Below are positions 52,400 to 57,188 of a stretch of 64,000 bases of DNA, in pieces. The stretch is from Pseudomonas sp. 7SR1 (lineage in GTDB: Bacteria > Pseudomonadota > Gammaproteobacteria > Pseudomonadales > Pseudomonadaceae). Position 1 is the first letter of the stretch, and each line of letters opens with the position of its first letter. A model generated the notes under the pieces. That model ran no database searches. It worked only from the letters and a program-made list of their open reading frames with translations, and was not told the origin of the DNA. Made by a program: the position numbers and the translations under genes. The stretch lies in contig NZ_LT707064.1 of NCBI RefSeq assembly GCF_900156465.1, positions 1,152,001 to 1,216,000 on the forward strand. Direction: 5' to 3'.

Positions 52400-53077
52400 T
52401 CACACCTGGCTCACCTCGAACACGAACGAAATCTCGCGCTTCTGGGCACTCCAGACGTACCGGATGTGTTTACCCTGCACTGGAATGGAAACCGCAGGCG
52501 GTCGAAACGCGGCGACACATTCGTGGCCGGCCAGACGAACGCTGTTGTAGAGCAGGCCCCAGGACAGGCTCTCGCGCAGTTGCCGGGCGAATACCTGGGA
52601 CGGGCCGTAGGCATCGGGGTCCGGGTTGTGCAGGTGCGGGTAATCGTGGCGGATGTCGTGCAGCGGCTTCACCACCTGGTTGACGTAGGTCCGCATGGTC
52701 AATTCCAGGTCCGGTTCGTTGGTCGCCCCCAGGAATCGCGCCTGGTGATAACAGGTCTCGGCGATGGCGGCCTCCTGGCTGCTGGCGGCGTAGTAGACGC
52801 CGAAGGTGCCGTCGCTGAAGCGGCTGCTCTTGCCGATATGGGTAAACGCCGCCATCACCGGCGAGGAACCCGGCCCCGACACACGGTCTTCGGGACGCAC
52901 GCGTGACAATACCCCCGCCTCCTCCATCAGCCGGTCATTGGTCAACGCCTCCAGGGCATAGGCGGTTGGCAGGTCCTCCGGATCGAGCACATCTTCGAAC
53001 AGCGTGATGGGTGGGAAGCAGCTGTTGACGATCCGGTAGGCGCGCGTCCATTGCGGGTCCGCCAGTGGGGGGGTCAT
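52400..53077 (-). CDS. RES-domain toxin
   Basis: This 225-residue protein has a RES domain, a toxin type that degrades or modifies NAD+. The conserved triad positions appear as Arg in TRAYRIV (N-terminal), Glu in YYAASSQEAAIAETCYHQA (middle) and Ser in GLLYNSVRLAG (C-terminal). The start overlaps the stop of the upstream antitoxin gene by one base (TGATG). Paired with an Xre/MbcA/ParS-type antitoxin it forms a RES-Xre toxin-antitoxin module. Length fits the family. Confidence 0.92.
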   Translation of the reverse strand: MTPPLADPQWTRAYRIVNSCFPPITLFEDVLDPEDLPTAYALEALTNDRLMEEAGVLSRVRPEDRVSGPGSSPVMAAFTHIGKSSRFSDGTFGVYYAASSQEAAIAETCYHQARFLGATNEPDLELTMRTYVNQVVKPLHDIRHDYPHLHNPDPDAYGPSQVFARQLRESLSWGLLYNSVRLAGHECVAAFRPPAVSIPVQGKHIRYVWSAQKREISFVFEVSQV

Positions 53078-53487
53078 CAGCCGCGCACTCCATCCAGGTA
53101 TCGCCGCACGTCGGCAATGTCCACCACCCGTCCGGCCAGCATATAGGACAGCGCCGATTGACCATTGAATGGCGCCGCGGTGTTGGGCGTGCTGACCCAT
53201 TGATAGGCACGGTCCCGGCTGTTGCTGAAGATGATGCTCAATGCCTTGTGAATACCCATGAGATAGGAGATGCGCTCCAGAGTGTCACGCGGCAAGCGTA
53301 TGTTGGCCGGCAGTTGCTTGTATTTATAGAAGGTGGTGTTTCCTACCTTGCCCAGCAACGTCCGCTGTTGCTCGACGCTACAGCCCCACAGCTCCATGAG
53401 GTTGAAGAAGAACTTCAACGCGACTCGACCCGCATCCGGGGAGTCCAGCTGTTGTTGTGCGTTGAGGGTGATGGAAGACGTGGCCAT
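53077..53487 (-). CDS. Xre/MbcA/ParS-family antitoxin
   Basis: This 136-residue antitoxin has an N-terminal helix-turn-helix-like region (LMELWGCSVEQQRTLLGKVGNTTFYKYKQLP) and a C-terminal toxin-binding domain (GIHKALSIIFSNSRDRAYQWVSTPNTAAPFNGQSALSYMLAGRVVDIADVRRYLD), the DUF2384 type. It would neutralise the RES toxin and repress its own promoter. It is first in the operon and is coupled to the toxin gene by TGATG. Confidence 0.92.
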   Translation of the reverse strand: MATSSITLNAQQQLDSPDAGRVALKFFFNLMELWGCSVEQQRTLLGKVGNTTFYKYKQLPANIRLPRDTLERISYLMGIHKALSIIFSNSRDRAYQWVSTPNTAAPFNGQSALSYMLAGRVVDIADVRRYLDGVRG

Positions 53488-53908: not shown

Positions 53909-54835
53909 ATGGATAGCAGAACCTTACGCAACCTCATGCGCATCGTGCAGACCGGCTCCCTGTCGGCGGCAGCGGAGCATTCGTGCCTCACGGTGCAGGC
54001 ATTGGCGGCGCAACTGAACAAGGTAGAGGAGCAATTCGGTTTCCGATTGTTCCGGCGTTCGAACAAGGGGCTGACGTTGACGAGCCAAGGCTCGGAACTG
54101 ACCCCCTTCATGGATCAGGTACTGGTGGCTACGCGACAGTTGGAAGAAAAGGTCGCGGCTCTCAAGAAGCCTCGACAACGCACACTGAAAGTGGCGCTCA
54201 ACACCACCCTTCCGGCGGAATTCAACCGACGATTGATCGATAGGCTGATCGCCGTCTTTCCTCAATATCAACTGGAGTTCAGCTACGCCGAATCCATGGA
54301 GAACCTGAGCAAGCTCAAGAACGAGGAGTTTGACCTGGCGATCCTGATCGGGCCGCAGCAGAGCGGCTTTTCCAGTATCGCGATGCCGGATGTGCAGGTC
54401 CGGGTGGTGGGCGCTCATTGCGGTGACGAGGACGATCCGCTGGGGTTGCTGGGCGACAGGTTCCAGGTGCGTCCGGCACAGGAGTGCCCGTACTCCCACA
54501 GCTTCCTTCGTTTCCTCGATGCCGGCCTGGGCGAATACGGTTCGAGCCAGCGCATGGTGTATTCCTGCAGTGAAACGCTGACCTTGTCGTTGATCACACA
54601 GCTCGATGGGCTGGGACTGGTCTCCAGGGAAGCGGCGCTGCACAACGGCCTGGCGATCTTTCCGGATTTCGAAGACTTTCTCGAAGTCCGCCTGGCGGTG
54701 AACAACCCGGAGCTGTCCGACCAGGCGCTGCACGACGTGGTGGACCTGAAGCTACAGGAACGAGCCGAGCGCGATATACGCCGCCGTGCCCACCGCCACA
54801 CTGAGAAACAGGTTACGGCTGAAATACGCACATAG
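53909..54835 (+). CDS. LysR-type transcriptional regulator
   Basis: This 308-residue LysR regulator has an N-terminal winged helix-turn-helix (MDSRTLRNLMRIVQTGSLSAAAEHSCLTVQALAAQLNKVEEQFGFRLFRRS) and a periplasmic-binding-like effector domain (LKVALNTTLPAEFNRRLIDRLIAVFPQYQL; LVSREAALHNGLAIFP). It is convergent with azlCD: its last 84 bp overlap the 3' end of azlD on the other strand. LysR genes are usually divergent from their targets; here the most likely target is the azl operon, by proximity only. Confidence 0.93.
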   Translation: MDSRTLRNLMRIVQTGSLSAAAEHSCLTVQALAAQLNKVEEQFGFRLFRRSNKGLTLTSQGSELTPFMDQVLVATRQLEEKVAALKKPRQRTLKVALNTTLPAEFNRRLIDRLIAVFPQYQLEFSYAESMENLSKLKNEEFDLAILIGPQQSGFSSIAMPDVQVRVVGAHCGDEDDPLGLLGDRFQVRPAQECPYSHSFLRFLDAGLGEYGSSQRMVYSCSETLTLSLITQLDGLGLVSREAALHNGLAIFPDFEDFLEVRLAVNNPELSDQALHDVVDLKLQERAERDIRRRAHRHTEKQVTAEIRT

Positions 54836-55069
54836 CAGCGTCGGAATCGCGGCATAGAACTCCGGGCGATCCAGTTGTATCTGCTGATCCTTGATCAACA
54901 GCGGGGTGAGGCTGATGGCAGCGACGATCGCCACCGGCAGGTATTCGAGGGCACGGGCGACGAAGGGCGGCCAGTGCTCCGTATTGACCTGCAACGGCAA
55001 GGCGCGGGGCAGGAAGGTCACGGCCATCATCAGGACCACCACCAGGATCAGGAACGTTTGGTCAGGCAT
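54752..55069 (-). CDS. azlD: AzlD family branched-chain amino-acid transport protein
   Basis: This 105-residue inner-membrane protein with about four helices starts MPDQTFLILVVVLMMAVTFLPRALPL. The RALPL-x-x and PVAIVAAISLTPLL segments are typical of AzlD. With AzlC it forms a branched-chain amino-acid (or analogue) exporter. It overlaps azlC by 22 bp and the convergent LysR gene by 84 bp. Confidence 0.9.
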   Translation of the reverse strand: MPDQTFLILVVVLMMAVTFLPRALPLQVNTEHWPPFVARALEYLPVAIVAAISLTPLLIKDQQIQLDRPEFYAAIPTLLCAYFSRNLFLSVAVGTAAYIALGSFL

Positions 55070-55761
55070 ACGCCTACCCCGCAGCCAACGAACGTGGCGA
55101 TGAAGACGTTGAACGGCGAACTGCCCAGCAGGCTCAGCACGCCCATGCAGACAACGGCCGCCAGGGCCGCGATCAGTTTGTTGCGGGTGTCGCACAACGA
55201 AACCAGCACGTAGAGCATCATCGCCGTCAGTGCGTAATCGAGCTGGTACTTGATCAGGTGGGCGGCGTATTGCGCGCAAACGGCGCCCAACAAGCCACCA
55301 AGCACCCATGAGGTATGGCAGAACAGGTTGAAACCGATGAGGTAGCGCACGCTGACCGGCGCCCCGCTGCCGAGCTTGACGCTGTGGAAGGCAAACGATT
55401 CGTCCGTGAGCCCGGCGGCGTAGCACCAGCGTTCGAAACGACTGAGCCCCAGCGCGCGCAGGGCCTTGGCCATGTAGACCGACATCAGCATGTGTCGCGC
55501 ATTGATCAGGAACGTGGTGAGCACGATGGTGGTCAGCGACGCCCCGCTGGAAATCAACGCCAGCGCGGCGAACTGTGAGGCGCCTGCATAGACGAACAGG
55601 CACATCGCGACCGGCAGCCACAAAGGCAACCCGGCGTTGACCGCCATCAGACCGAACACAAACGAAACCGTAAAATAACCCGCCACCACCGGACTGGCTT
55701 CAGCGAAGGTGCGCGAGGCTTGTGGTTCGACCGCCAGCGGCTGGCTGGAAGTCTTGCTCAT
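55048..55761 (-). CDS. azlC: AzlC family branched-chain amino-acid exporter subunit
   Basis: This 237-residue membrane protein has the AzlC hallmarks FTVSFVFGLMAVNAGLPLWLPVAMCLFVYAGASQFAALALI, LINARHMLMSVYMA and CYAAGLTDESFA. It is the large subunit of the AzlCD exporter, known to confer resistance to leucine analogues in Bacillus. It overlaps the upstream GNAT gene by 4 bp and azlD by 22 bp, so all are in one operon. Confidence 0.93.
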   Translation of the reverse strand: MSKTSSQPLAVEPQASRTFAEASPVVAGYFTVSFVFGLMAVNAGLPLWLPVAMCLFVYAGASQFAALALISSGASLTTIVLTTFLINARHMLMSVYMAKALRALGLSRFERWCYAAGLTDESFAFHSVKLGSGAPVSVRYLIGFNLFCHTSWVLGGLLGAVCAQYAAHLIKYQLDYALTAMMLYVLVSLCDTRNKLIAALAAVVCMGVLSLLGSSPFNVFIATFVGCGVGVCLTKRS

Positions 55762-56195
55762 AAATCCCTCTCGAAAGTGATTTCACCCCGGGGTTCGTAG
55801 AACCCCTGGGCCGCCCAGAAACGCTTGCCGGCCAGGTTAGCATCGTCGACGAACAGGAACATGCGCAACACGCCCACCCGTTTCATGTCGGCCGATGCCG
55901 CTTCCACCAGGCGCTGGCCCAGGCCCCGGGTACGATAGCCCGGGCTGACCGCCAGGTGATTGATGGTGCCACGGGTACCGAGCCTGCCGCCAATCACCGC
56001 GCCGACCACTTCACCGCTGGCATCGATGGCCAGGTAGGCCGTGGTGGTCTCCTGGAGAATGACCCCACGCAGGAATCGAGCATCCTGCCATTCGCAGAAC
56101 GATACTTCGTCGAAGCCGCGAAAGAACTGCTCCATTCTTTCCGCATCCCTGACCATGGCCCGGCGCAACATGACCTGTTGCACCGGATCTTCCAT
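55758..56195 (-). CDS. GNAT family N-acetyltransferase
   Basis: This 145-residue protein starts MEDPVQQVMLRRAMVRDAE. The acetyl-CoA loop is HLAVSPGYRTRGLGQRLVEAA, followed by FLFVDDANLAGKRFWAAQGFYEPRGEI, a standard single-domain GNAT. It sits between the dioxygenase (13 bp upstream) and azlC (4 bp overlap). In that context an amine of a small molecule, such as an amino acid, is a more likely substrate than a protein. That is inference from neighbours. Confidence 0.9.
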   Translation of the reverse strand: MEDPVQQVMLRRAMVRDAERMEQFFRGFDEVSFCEWQDARFLRGVILQETTTAYLAIDASGEVVGAVIGGRLGTRGTINHLAVSPGYRTRGLGQRLVEAASADMKRVGVLRMFLFVDDANLAGKRFWAAQGFYEPRGEITFERDL

Positions 56196-56208
56196 GGGTT
56201 CGAGCTGT

Positions 56209-56955
56209 TCAGCGAACAATGTCAAAAGCGGTCCCGGGCCGCGAGAAGGAAATCGCCAGGATCTGCCTGAACGCCATTTCATGGCTATGGACGTTTCGGG
56301 CCGGGGTCACGTAGTGACGCATGTCGCGGTCGAGGAAGAAGGTAGTGTCGAGGATGTCCTCGTAGGTGGTCGCCGCCAGTTGCTCTTCCTGGGGGCTGTA
56401 CAGCCGGCTTTCCGCGCCTGCCACGTTATGGCGGCCCCAGAAGTGCACGCCGCTGAACGGGTAGCCGTCGCAGTGAATCCCTTCGGGAGTGATTTCCAGC
56501 TGCTTGCCAGGCTTGATCTCGATGCGGATCTGATGGATCTGGCACTGCCAGATTTCATCATGCAGCTCTTGTGGAAGGACGTTTTTATAAACTTCGAAGT
56601 CCGTATCGATCAGGCTGCGCATCACGGGCGAGTTGATCACTTCGTTGGAAAAATCCTGGAAGTGCCGCTCCAGTCCTCCGACATAGCTGTTGTTGGCCTT
56701 GGACTGGATGTAGGCCCGGTGTTCGAGCTGCTTGAGCTCACGGGTCTTCGGGTTGTATTCGAAGTCGCTGTAACGACGAAAACGCATGCCTGACTCGGCC
56801 TGGCCGTAATAACTGTCGGGCTCCATGTTTTCCCAGCTTTTGGTCAGCCGGACAAAGTCGCCGAAATGACCGTAGAGATTGAAGTCTCCACCGCGGACGT
56901 TAACGTATTTGTCACGTCGAAGCGCTTCGCCCACTTCCCTGTTCAGAACGATCAT
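56209..56955 (-). CDS. 2-oxoglutarate/Fe(II)-dependent dioxygenase, amino-acid hydroxylase type
   Basis: This 248-residue enzyme resembles the 2OG-Fe_Oxy_2 family (PF10014), whose known members hydroxylate free L-isoleucine and related amino acids. The iron site reads EGIHCDGYPFSGVHFWGRHNVAG, with H161-x-D163. A distal His is at H223 or H225 (NVHSHE), and R230 (AFRQIL) is placed to bind 2-oxoglutarate. Length fits. It is the first gene of the operon with a GNAT and AzlCD, so its product is probably passed to acetylation and export. The exact amino-acid substrate is not known. Confidence 0.85.
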   Translation of the reverse strand: MIVLNREVGEALRRDKYVNVRGGDFNLYGHFGDFVRLTKSWENMEPDSYYGQAESGMRFRRYSDFEYNPKTRELKQLEHRAYIQSKANNSYVGGLERHFQDFSNEVINSPVMRSLIDTDFEVYKNVLPQELHDEIWQCQIHQIRIEIKPGKQLEITPEGIHCDGYPFSGVHFWGRHNVAGAESRLYSPQEEQLAATTYEDILDTTFFLDRDMRHYVTPARNVHSHEMAFRQILAISFSRPGTAFDIVR

Positions 56956-57130
56956 TTTTATCAGGTCTCCACTGCATTGAGCGGCCTAATCTAGTAGGTG
57001 CAGGATTTACGTCCATGAGAAAGAATTTGAGGCATTTCAAGCCTTGCTTGAAACGATGGGGGAAGGTCCGTCGGCACGACTTTTTATCGGGAAAAAGGTC
57101 GTTTTCAGTGGTATTTCTGGCGCCAAAAGA

Positions 57131-57160
57131 TAAAAAACCCCCGAATTGGATTCGGGGGTC
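57131..57160 (-). terminator. Terminator of the OprD-family porin gene
   Basis: A 10-bp stem (ACCCCCGAAT / ATTCGGGGGT) with a 3-base loop is followed on the minus strand by TTTTTT. It lies 29 bp beyond the porin stop codon. Confidence 0.9.
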
Positions 57161-57188
57161 TGTTCAAACTGACTGACGCGATCTGCTA

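Follow-up and report, generated by a model that had tools for sequence, protein, structure and literature searches.

Gene content and arrangement of the locus

The 64,000-nucleotide stretch of Pseudomonas sp. 7SR1 analyzed here (contig NZ_LT707064.1, positions 1,152,001 to 1,216,000; hereafter the window) carries a four-gene minus-strand operon, reading from position 56955 down to 54752, that combines a PF10014 2-oxoglutarate (2OG)/Fe(II) dioxygenase with a GNAT N-acetyltransferase and the amino-acid exporter AzlC-AzlD (AzlCD). The first gene (56209-56955, minus strand) encodes the dioxygenase of 248 amino acids (PF10014, E 9.4e-51) and is followed after 13 base pairs (bp) by the GNAT gene (55758-56195, minus; 145 amino acids counted from the ATG; PF00583, E 2.2e-14). 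The latter overlaps by 4 bp with azlC, encoding the large exporter subunit (55048-55761, minus; PF03591, E 4.7e-38), which in turn overlaps by 22 bp with azlD, encoding the small subunit (54752-55069, minus; PF05437, E 7.9e-21). A LysR regulator gene assigned by Pfam (53909-54835, plus strand) is convergent to the operon. An earlier note on this DNA had described the four genes with these positions and spacings as well as the convergent regulator; both descriptions were borne out, with the Pfam identity confirmed for each gene, and it was newly noticed that the coding ends of lysR and azlD overlap tail to tail by 84 bp (54752-54835). The geometry of this pair was identical (match starts 237 bp apart) in all 80 close loci, taken as the best 80 of 97 relatives. 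Antisense interference may be possible at the overlap.

The dioxygenase scored 172.7 bits with PF10014 against a gathering cut-off of 23.1, and the HxD motif that the note had placed in a PF10014-like context was found as H161-C-D163. Across 44 aligned sequences, H161, H214, and R230 were invariant and D163 was kept in at least 90%; the HxD...H iron triad, the 2OG arginine, and the fold of the family are all present. The names given to this protein by the sources are limited to the family name, BsmA, or hypothetical protein. The adjacent exporter genes also exceeded the gathering cut-offs of their families (131.2 versus 32.1 bits for PF03591 and 74.5 versus 23.7 bits for PF05437), and AzlC stayed below the cut-off of the azlC equivalog TIGR00346 (84.9 versus 332.35 bits).

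Inheritance of the operon in Pseudomonas

At a threshold of 1e-20, the dioxygenase found matches in 90 of 398 sampled Pseudomonas genomes, its own included. Orthologs were present in 85 of them (75 at 86-100%, two at 78-79%, and eight at 63-65% identity), and five genomes had only a distant paralog (27-33%). A family-wide draw of 248 genomes gave an ortholog in seven (own included) and one match at 28%. In the class sample (369 genomes) the only ortholog was that of the own genome, with matches at 27-33% in seven others, and the order sample (390 genomes) returned the own genome, one congener, and one match at 31%.

All five genes were present in each of the 80 close loci. Since these loci belong to close relatives, a wider test of co-occurrence was made, in which the AzlC partner (55-100% identity) was found in 21 of 21 carriers of the dioxygenase and in none of 58 non-carriers (best match 35%). 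GNAT (45-97% identity) occurred in 49 of 50 carriers, the exception being G113, and 30 non-carriers yielded four weak matches, the best of 40% over 75 residues. The junctions recurred as well: the GNAT stop and the azlC start overlapped as NTGA in 136/136 four-gene loci and the 22-bp azlC/azlD overlap was kept in 135/136 (exception L114), counts that include duplicate genomes (the 138 loci represent 109 distinct operon DNAs, of which 108 have GNAT). Given these recurrent overlaps, the gene arrangement is far from chance.

Two types of the operon were distinguished. In type A, comprising the window and relatives down to 73%, the LysR gene lies convergent and downstream, and in type B (eight loci, 63-65%) it lies divergent and upstream, with an Mqo-like gene nearby in 8/8 (examined by Pfam in one). 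The type A loci of 78-79% have a nearby PALP-family gene, which we take to be trpB from its appearance, and the operon was found in at least three genomic settings. The earlier note had accepted that its pathway idea would fail if the four genes did not stay together in related genomes. This test was run, and the genes passed it through their co-occurrence, their kept junctions, and the existence of two operon types in different places, showing that chance alone does not explain their neighbourhood. Purifying selection acts on all four genes (dN/dS, the ratio of nonsynonymous to synonymous rates, 0.02-0.15 in six comparisons each), and their evolutionary distances correlate at 0.94-0.99, features that fit synthesis with export and detoxification alike and do not separate the two.

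The GNAT gene is the most variable member. Where it starts is uncertain: many relatives lack the ATG 13 bp past the dioxygenase stop, a TTG overlaps this stop in every type A locus of 86-100% dioxygenase identity, and type B GNAT has an ATG overlapping the stop, so a TTG at about 56219 or 56225 is a candidate alternative. Similarity to ArsN-type models was weak and far below cut-off. In the type B GNATs compared (five of the eight loci L127-L134, e.g., L134:7036-7515), R-x-S-R-I-G replaces the type A R-x-x-G-x-G, a region presumed to be the acetyl-CoA loop, and the activity may differ. In G113 the dioxygenase gene is directly followed by azlC, with no GNAT between them, which points to the oxidase and the exporter as the core and suggests that N-acetylation is an accessory step. 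These features bear on the possibility, quite improbable in our estimate, that the neighbours act on different substrates, with GNAT modifying a protein or an unrelated metabolite. It would be in line with the fastest evolution among the four genes (mean distance 0.20 versus 0.13), with the loss in one lineage, and with a nearest solved relative, PA4534, that is named as uncharacterised, but it sits poorly with the GNAT/azlC overlap kept at every four-gene locus and with the presence of GNAT in all carriers save one.

The regulator and its likely operator

Alignment of 25 type A upstream regions revealed a conserved block in which a dyad with TTCAAGC-AAG-GCTTGAA at its centre (57036-57052, minus) is followed by ATGCCTCAAATTCTTTCTCATGG and then by TAGATT, a -10-like hexamer (56988-56993, minus). 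The type B upstream regions contain the related CAAGCAACGGTTGAGGCACCTCAAA together with TAGATT. Within 200 bp upstream, the best operator match differed at 0-3 positions in 99 of 100 type A loci and at 3-4 in 8/8 type B loci; the hundredth type A locus, that of G113, had six mismatches and carries a dyad of different letters, CTCAACTTTTCGTTGAG. Control stretches within the dioxygenase gene gave 4-7 mismatches and shuffled upstream DNA gave 3-8, a range overlapping that of type B, whose operator would therefore not stand out by itself and rests on alignment and spacing. TAGATT began 59-60 bp after the dyad start in 91/100 type A and 7/8 type B loci, and a scan of the region with the sigma-70 consensus found nothing. 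Among 59 distinct 17-mers, in-register facing positions of the dyad were complementary in 329 of 413 cases, versus 12-34% out of register, although the sites had been picked with a palindromic motif, which favours complementarity. The 33-base operator site occurs once in the genome at up to three mismatches, and its centre falls roughly 63 bp upstream of the inferred transcription start (near -63), about where LysR proteins commonly bind. The dyad is thus likely the LysR binding site, as judged from these sequence features.

The regulator follows the operon. A LysR ortholog was found in 21/21 carriers and 2/58 non-carriers, in a survey that scored at most 29 candidates per genome and may miss divergent LysR proteins. 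The type B LysR, at 32-36% identity, still matched the window LysR best (160.6 versus 44 bits among 111 candidates in the genome), indicating that the regulator travelled with the operon despite its changed place. The two non-carriers, G989 and G1051, kept LysR (79%) and the operator and carry an AMP-binding gene (PF00501; 331 and 312 amino acids as called) where the four genes would otherwise stand. This swap shows that operator and LysR are linked independently of the enzymes and that the regulator is able to control other genes as well. The LysR ortholog and operator stand beside the AMP-binding enzyme gene at L167:7830-8825 and L168:5960-7078, and L168 contains a 76% match to window positions 56929-57056 that spans the operator and the initial codons of the dioxygenase gene, a remnant of its start.

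By Pfam, the operon is flanked by LysR and OprD genes, and a terminator-like hairpin of 12 pairs (57135-57161, minus) lies in the gap between the operon and the OprD-family porin gene upstream of it. Farther away, window positions 52400-53487 hold a likely toxin-antitoxin pair, consisting of a RES-domain gene and an Xre/MbcA/ParS-type antitoxin gene overlapping its start (PF08808, PF20432, PF09722).

Known relatives and proposed function

The closest solved relative of the dioxygenase by sequence is HrmJ (9dqp; E 7.8e-34, or 5.5e-53 with a profile), and isoleucine 4-dioxygenase (IDO) shares 20% identity across the fold alignment. For two further solved relatives, 8w8h and 3pl0, no function was found. 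The solved PF10014 relatives for which a function was found, IDO, TqaL, HrmJ, and BelL, work on free amino acids, the reactions being hydroxylation, aziridination, or cyclopropanation. A free amino acid as substrate, an assignment drawn from these relatives, is therefore supported, in agreement with the earlier proposal; the hydroxylation proposed with it is only the likeliest reaction, and ring closure or another oxidation is also possible.

Several known systems resemble the operon in part. The Bacillus thuringiensis IDO operon is described as comprising isoleucine 4-dioxygenase, the dehydrogenase AR, and the RhtA exporter (PMC3684760). It likewise pairs a PF10014 enzyme with an exporter but differs in using RhtA rather than AzlCD and in its AR-type dehydrogenase, whereas the present operon holds GNAT, AzlC, and AzlD under LysR and contains neither of those two partners. 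The Hil operon of Pantoea and Pseudomonas (HilR, HilP, HilA, HilB, and HilC) shares a LysR gene and a PF10014 gene at one locus, the only part of its five-gene core present here: HilA, HilC, and HilP are missing from the window locus, and the dioxygenase reached 24.7 bits with the HilB equivalog NF042428 against a cut-off of 350. The nitrocyclopropane synthases HrmJ and BelL, of hormaomycin and belactosin biosynthesis, provide the closest solved relative and act on a free amino acid. Unlike in their clusters, there are no peptide-assembly genes in the operon, and no N-oxygenase partner (HrmI/BelK, making 6-nitronorleucine) was found within the operon or among its immediate neighbours, the part of the genome to which this search was confined. 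The earlier note knew of no described system with this exact gene set, and none came up in literature searches covering open-licence papers; the general design, by contrast, has a precedent in IDO-RhtA. By this comparison, the operon reads as a variation on already known oxidase-plus-exporter operons.

In the leading reading, which we hold to be about as likely as not, the operon is a LysR-controlled unit in which one free amino acid, probably an aliphatic one, is oxidised and the product exported. This proposal builds on the gene identities and junctions, the co-inheritance, the operator going with LysR, the purifying selection, and the catalytic residues and fold of the dioxygenase; we infer the substrate, the reaction, the direction of flux, the role of GNAT, and the purpose. 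LysR with its effector would bind the dyad at 57036-57052 and switch the operon on, and the PF10014 enzyme, with Fe(II), O2, and 2OG, would then attack a side-chain carbon of a free L-amino acid, with hydroxylation as the likeliest oxidation. AzlCD would export the oxidised product, which would act extracellularly as an antimetabolite or signal, and GNAT would N-acetylate the product remaining in the cell for self-protection or, less likely, make the exported form. The pathway of hydroxylation, acetylation, and export suggested earlier thus stands in its linked genes and family-supported substrate, while its exact reaction, acetylation, and export order are conjectural and the same parts would fit detoxification. 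As to its acetylation step, GNAT is present and usually kept, yet G113 shows it is not essential, and acetylation before export is doubtful because AzlCD is known as a pump of unmodified amino acids.

Several observations weigh against synthesis with export. Of the 19 distant PF10014 loci, five have LysE in the vicinity (L140, L142, L143, L144, and L155), L162 has EamA, and L160 has MFS, whereas no exporter was identified near the other 12; these exporter counts are lower bounds, since Pfam was run on selected neighbours only. In the four plasmid records viewed, a DMT transporter stands near the PF10014 gene in one and none is annotated in three. The pairing of oxygenase and exporter is thus recurrent but not general, and the exporter families differ. 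The class and order samples gave no orthologs beyond Pseudomonadaceae, so the linkage tests rest on one bacterial family; unlike the Hil or belactosin clusters, the set offers no additional tailoring enzyme; no GNAT of the operon kind was found in the G113 genome, leaving one lineage without it; and the two non-carriers that keep LysR and operator show the regulator not to be strictly tied to the enzymes. For AzlCD itself, the best-documented role is to pump toxic amino acids out of the cell, which favours detoxification (PMC10882977, PMC11005379). As a separate observation on the distant loci, two Pseudomonas clusters (L140:3417-6517 and L143:2318-5496) hold genes for a LysE exporter and a GNAT together with a distant PF10014 enzyme and an N-oxygenase of the AurF type. 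The AurF assignment comes from Pfam in L143, and L140 has its genes in the same order; such a set could produce a nitro or nitrocyclopropyl amino acid.

Inducible detoxification is the strongest rival, though one we hold to be less probable: LysR would respond to a toxic free amino acid of plant or competitor origin, which the dioxygenase would oxidise, GNAT acetylate, and AzlCD expel, as parallel defences against that one compound. N-acetylation is a known means of disarming toxic amino acids, the dispensable GNAT of G113 fits redundant defences, and the patchy occurrence fits an accessory resistance trait. We know of no PF10014 enzyme acting as a detoxifier, and the characterised relatives are biosynthetic in the accounts available, both of which speak against detoxification. 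Bacillus subtilis AzlCD, of the same two Pfam families but controlled by AzlB instead of LysR, and with the present AzlC below the azlC equivalog cut-off, is reported to confer resistance to 4-azaleucine, histidine, asparagine, and 2,3-diaminopropionate (PMC10882977, PMC11005379). The AzlCD papers lean to detoxification and the PF10014 papers to synthesis and export. The disposal of harmful amino acids by similar exporters in B. subtilis (PMC10882977, PMC11005379) would also suit a homeostasis valve, in which an excess ordinary amino acid, perhaps sensed directly by LysR, is removed by modification and export and the product itself is unimportant. Such a valve seems unlikely, as oxidation would cost 2OG needlessly if export sufficed and the unit is found in no more than about one in five of the sampled Pseudomonas genomes.

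Within synthesis and export, a more specific and tentative possibility is a new small antimetabolite or signal made from one protein amino acid by a single oxidation, with GNAT providing immunity or acylation and AzlCD serving as the exporter. To our knowledge, a minimal pathway of this kind would lack the core enzymes usually sought by cluster finders. The product may be an amino acid with a hydroxy, aziridine, or cyclopropyl group, or an N-acetyl amino-lactone similar to a homoserine lactone, a route on which the source describing the IDO operon speculates for 4-hydroxy amino acids (PMC3684760).

The unit is present in 85 of the 398 sampled Pseudomonas genomes, and its single operator and dedicated LysR make the inducer, and hence the function, directly testable by a reporter. 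If it detoxifies, it would constitute a layered resistance device against an environmental amino acid; if a product is made and exported, a class of compact natural product pathways would be added and AzlCD would gain a biosynthetic role.
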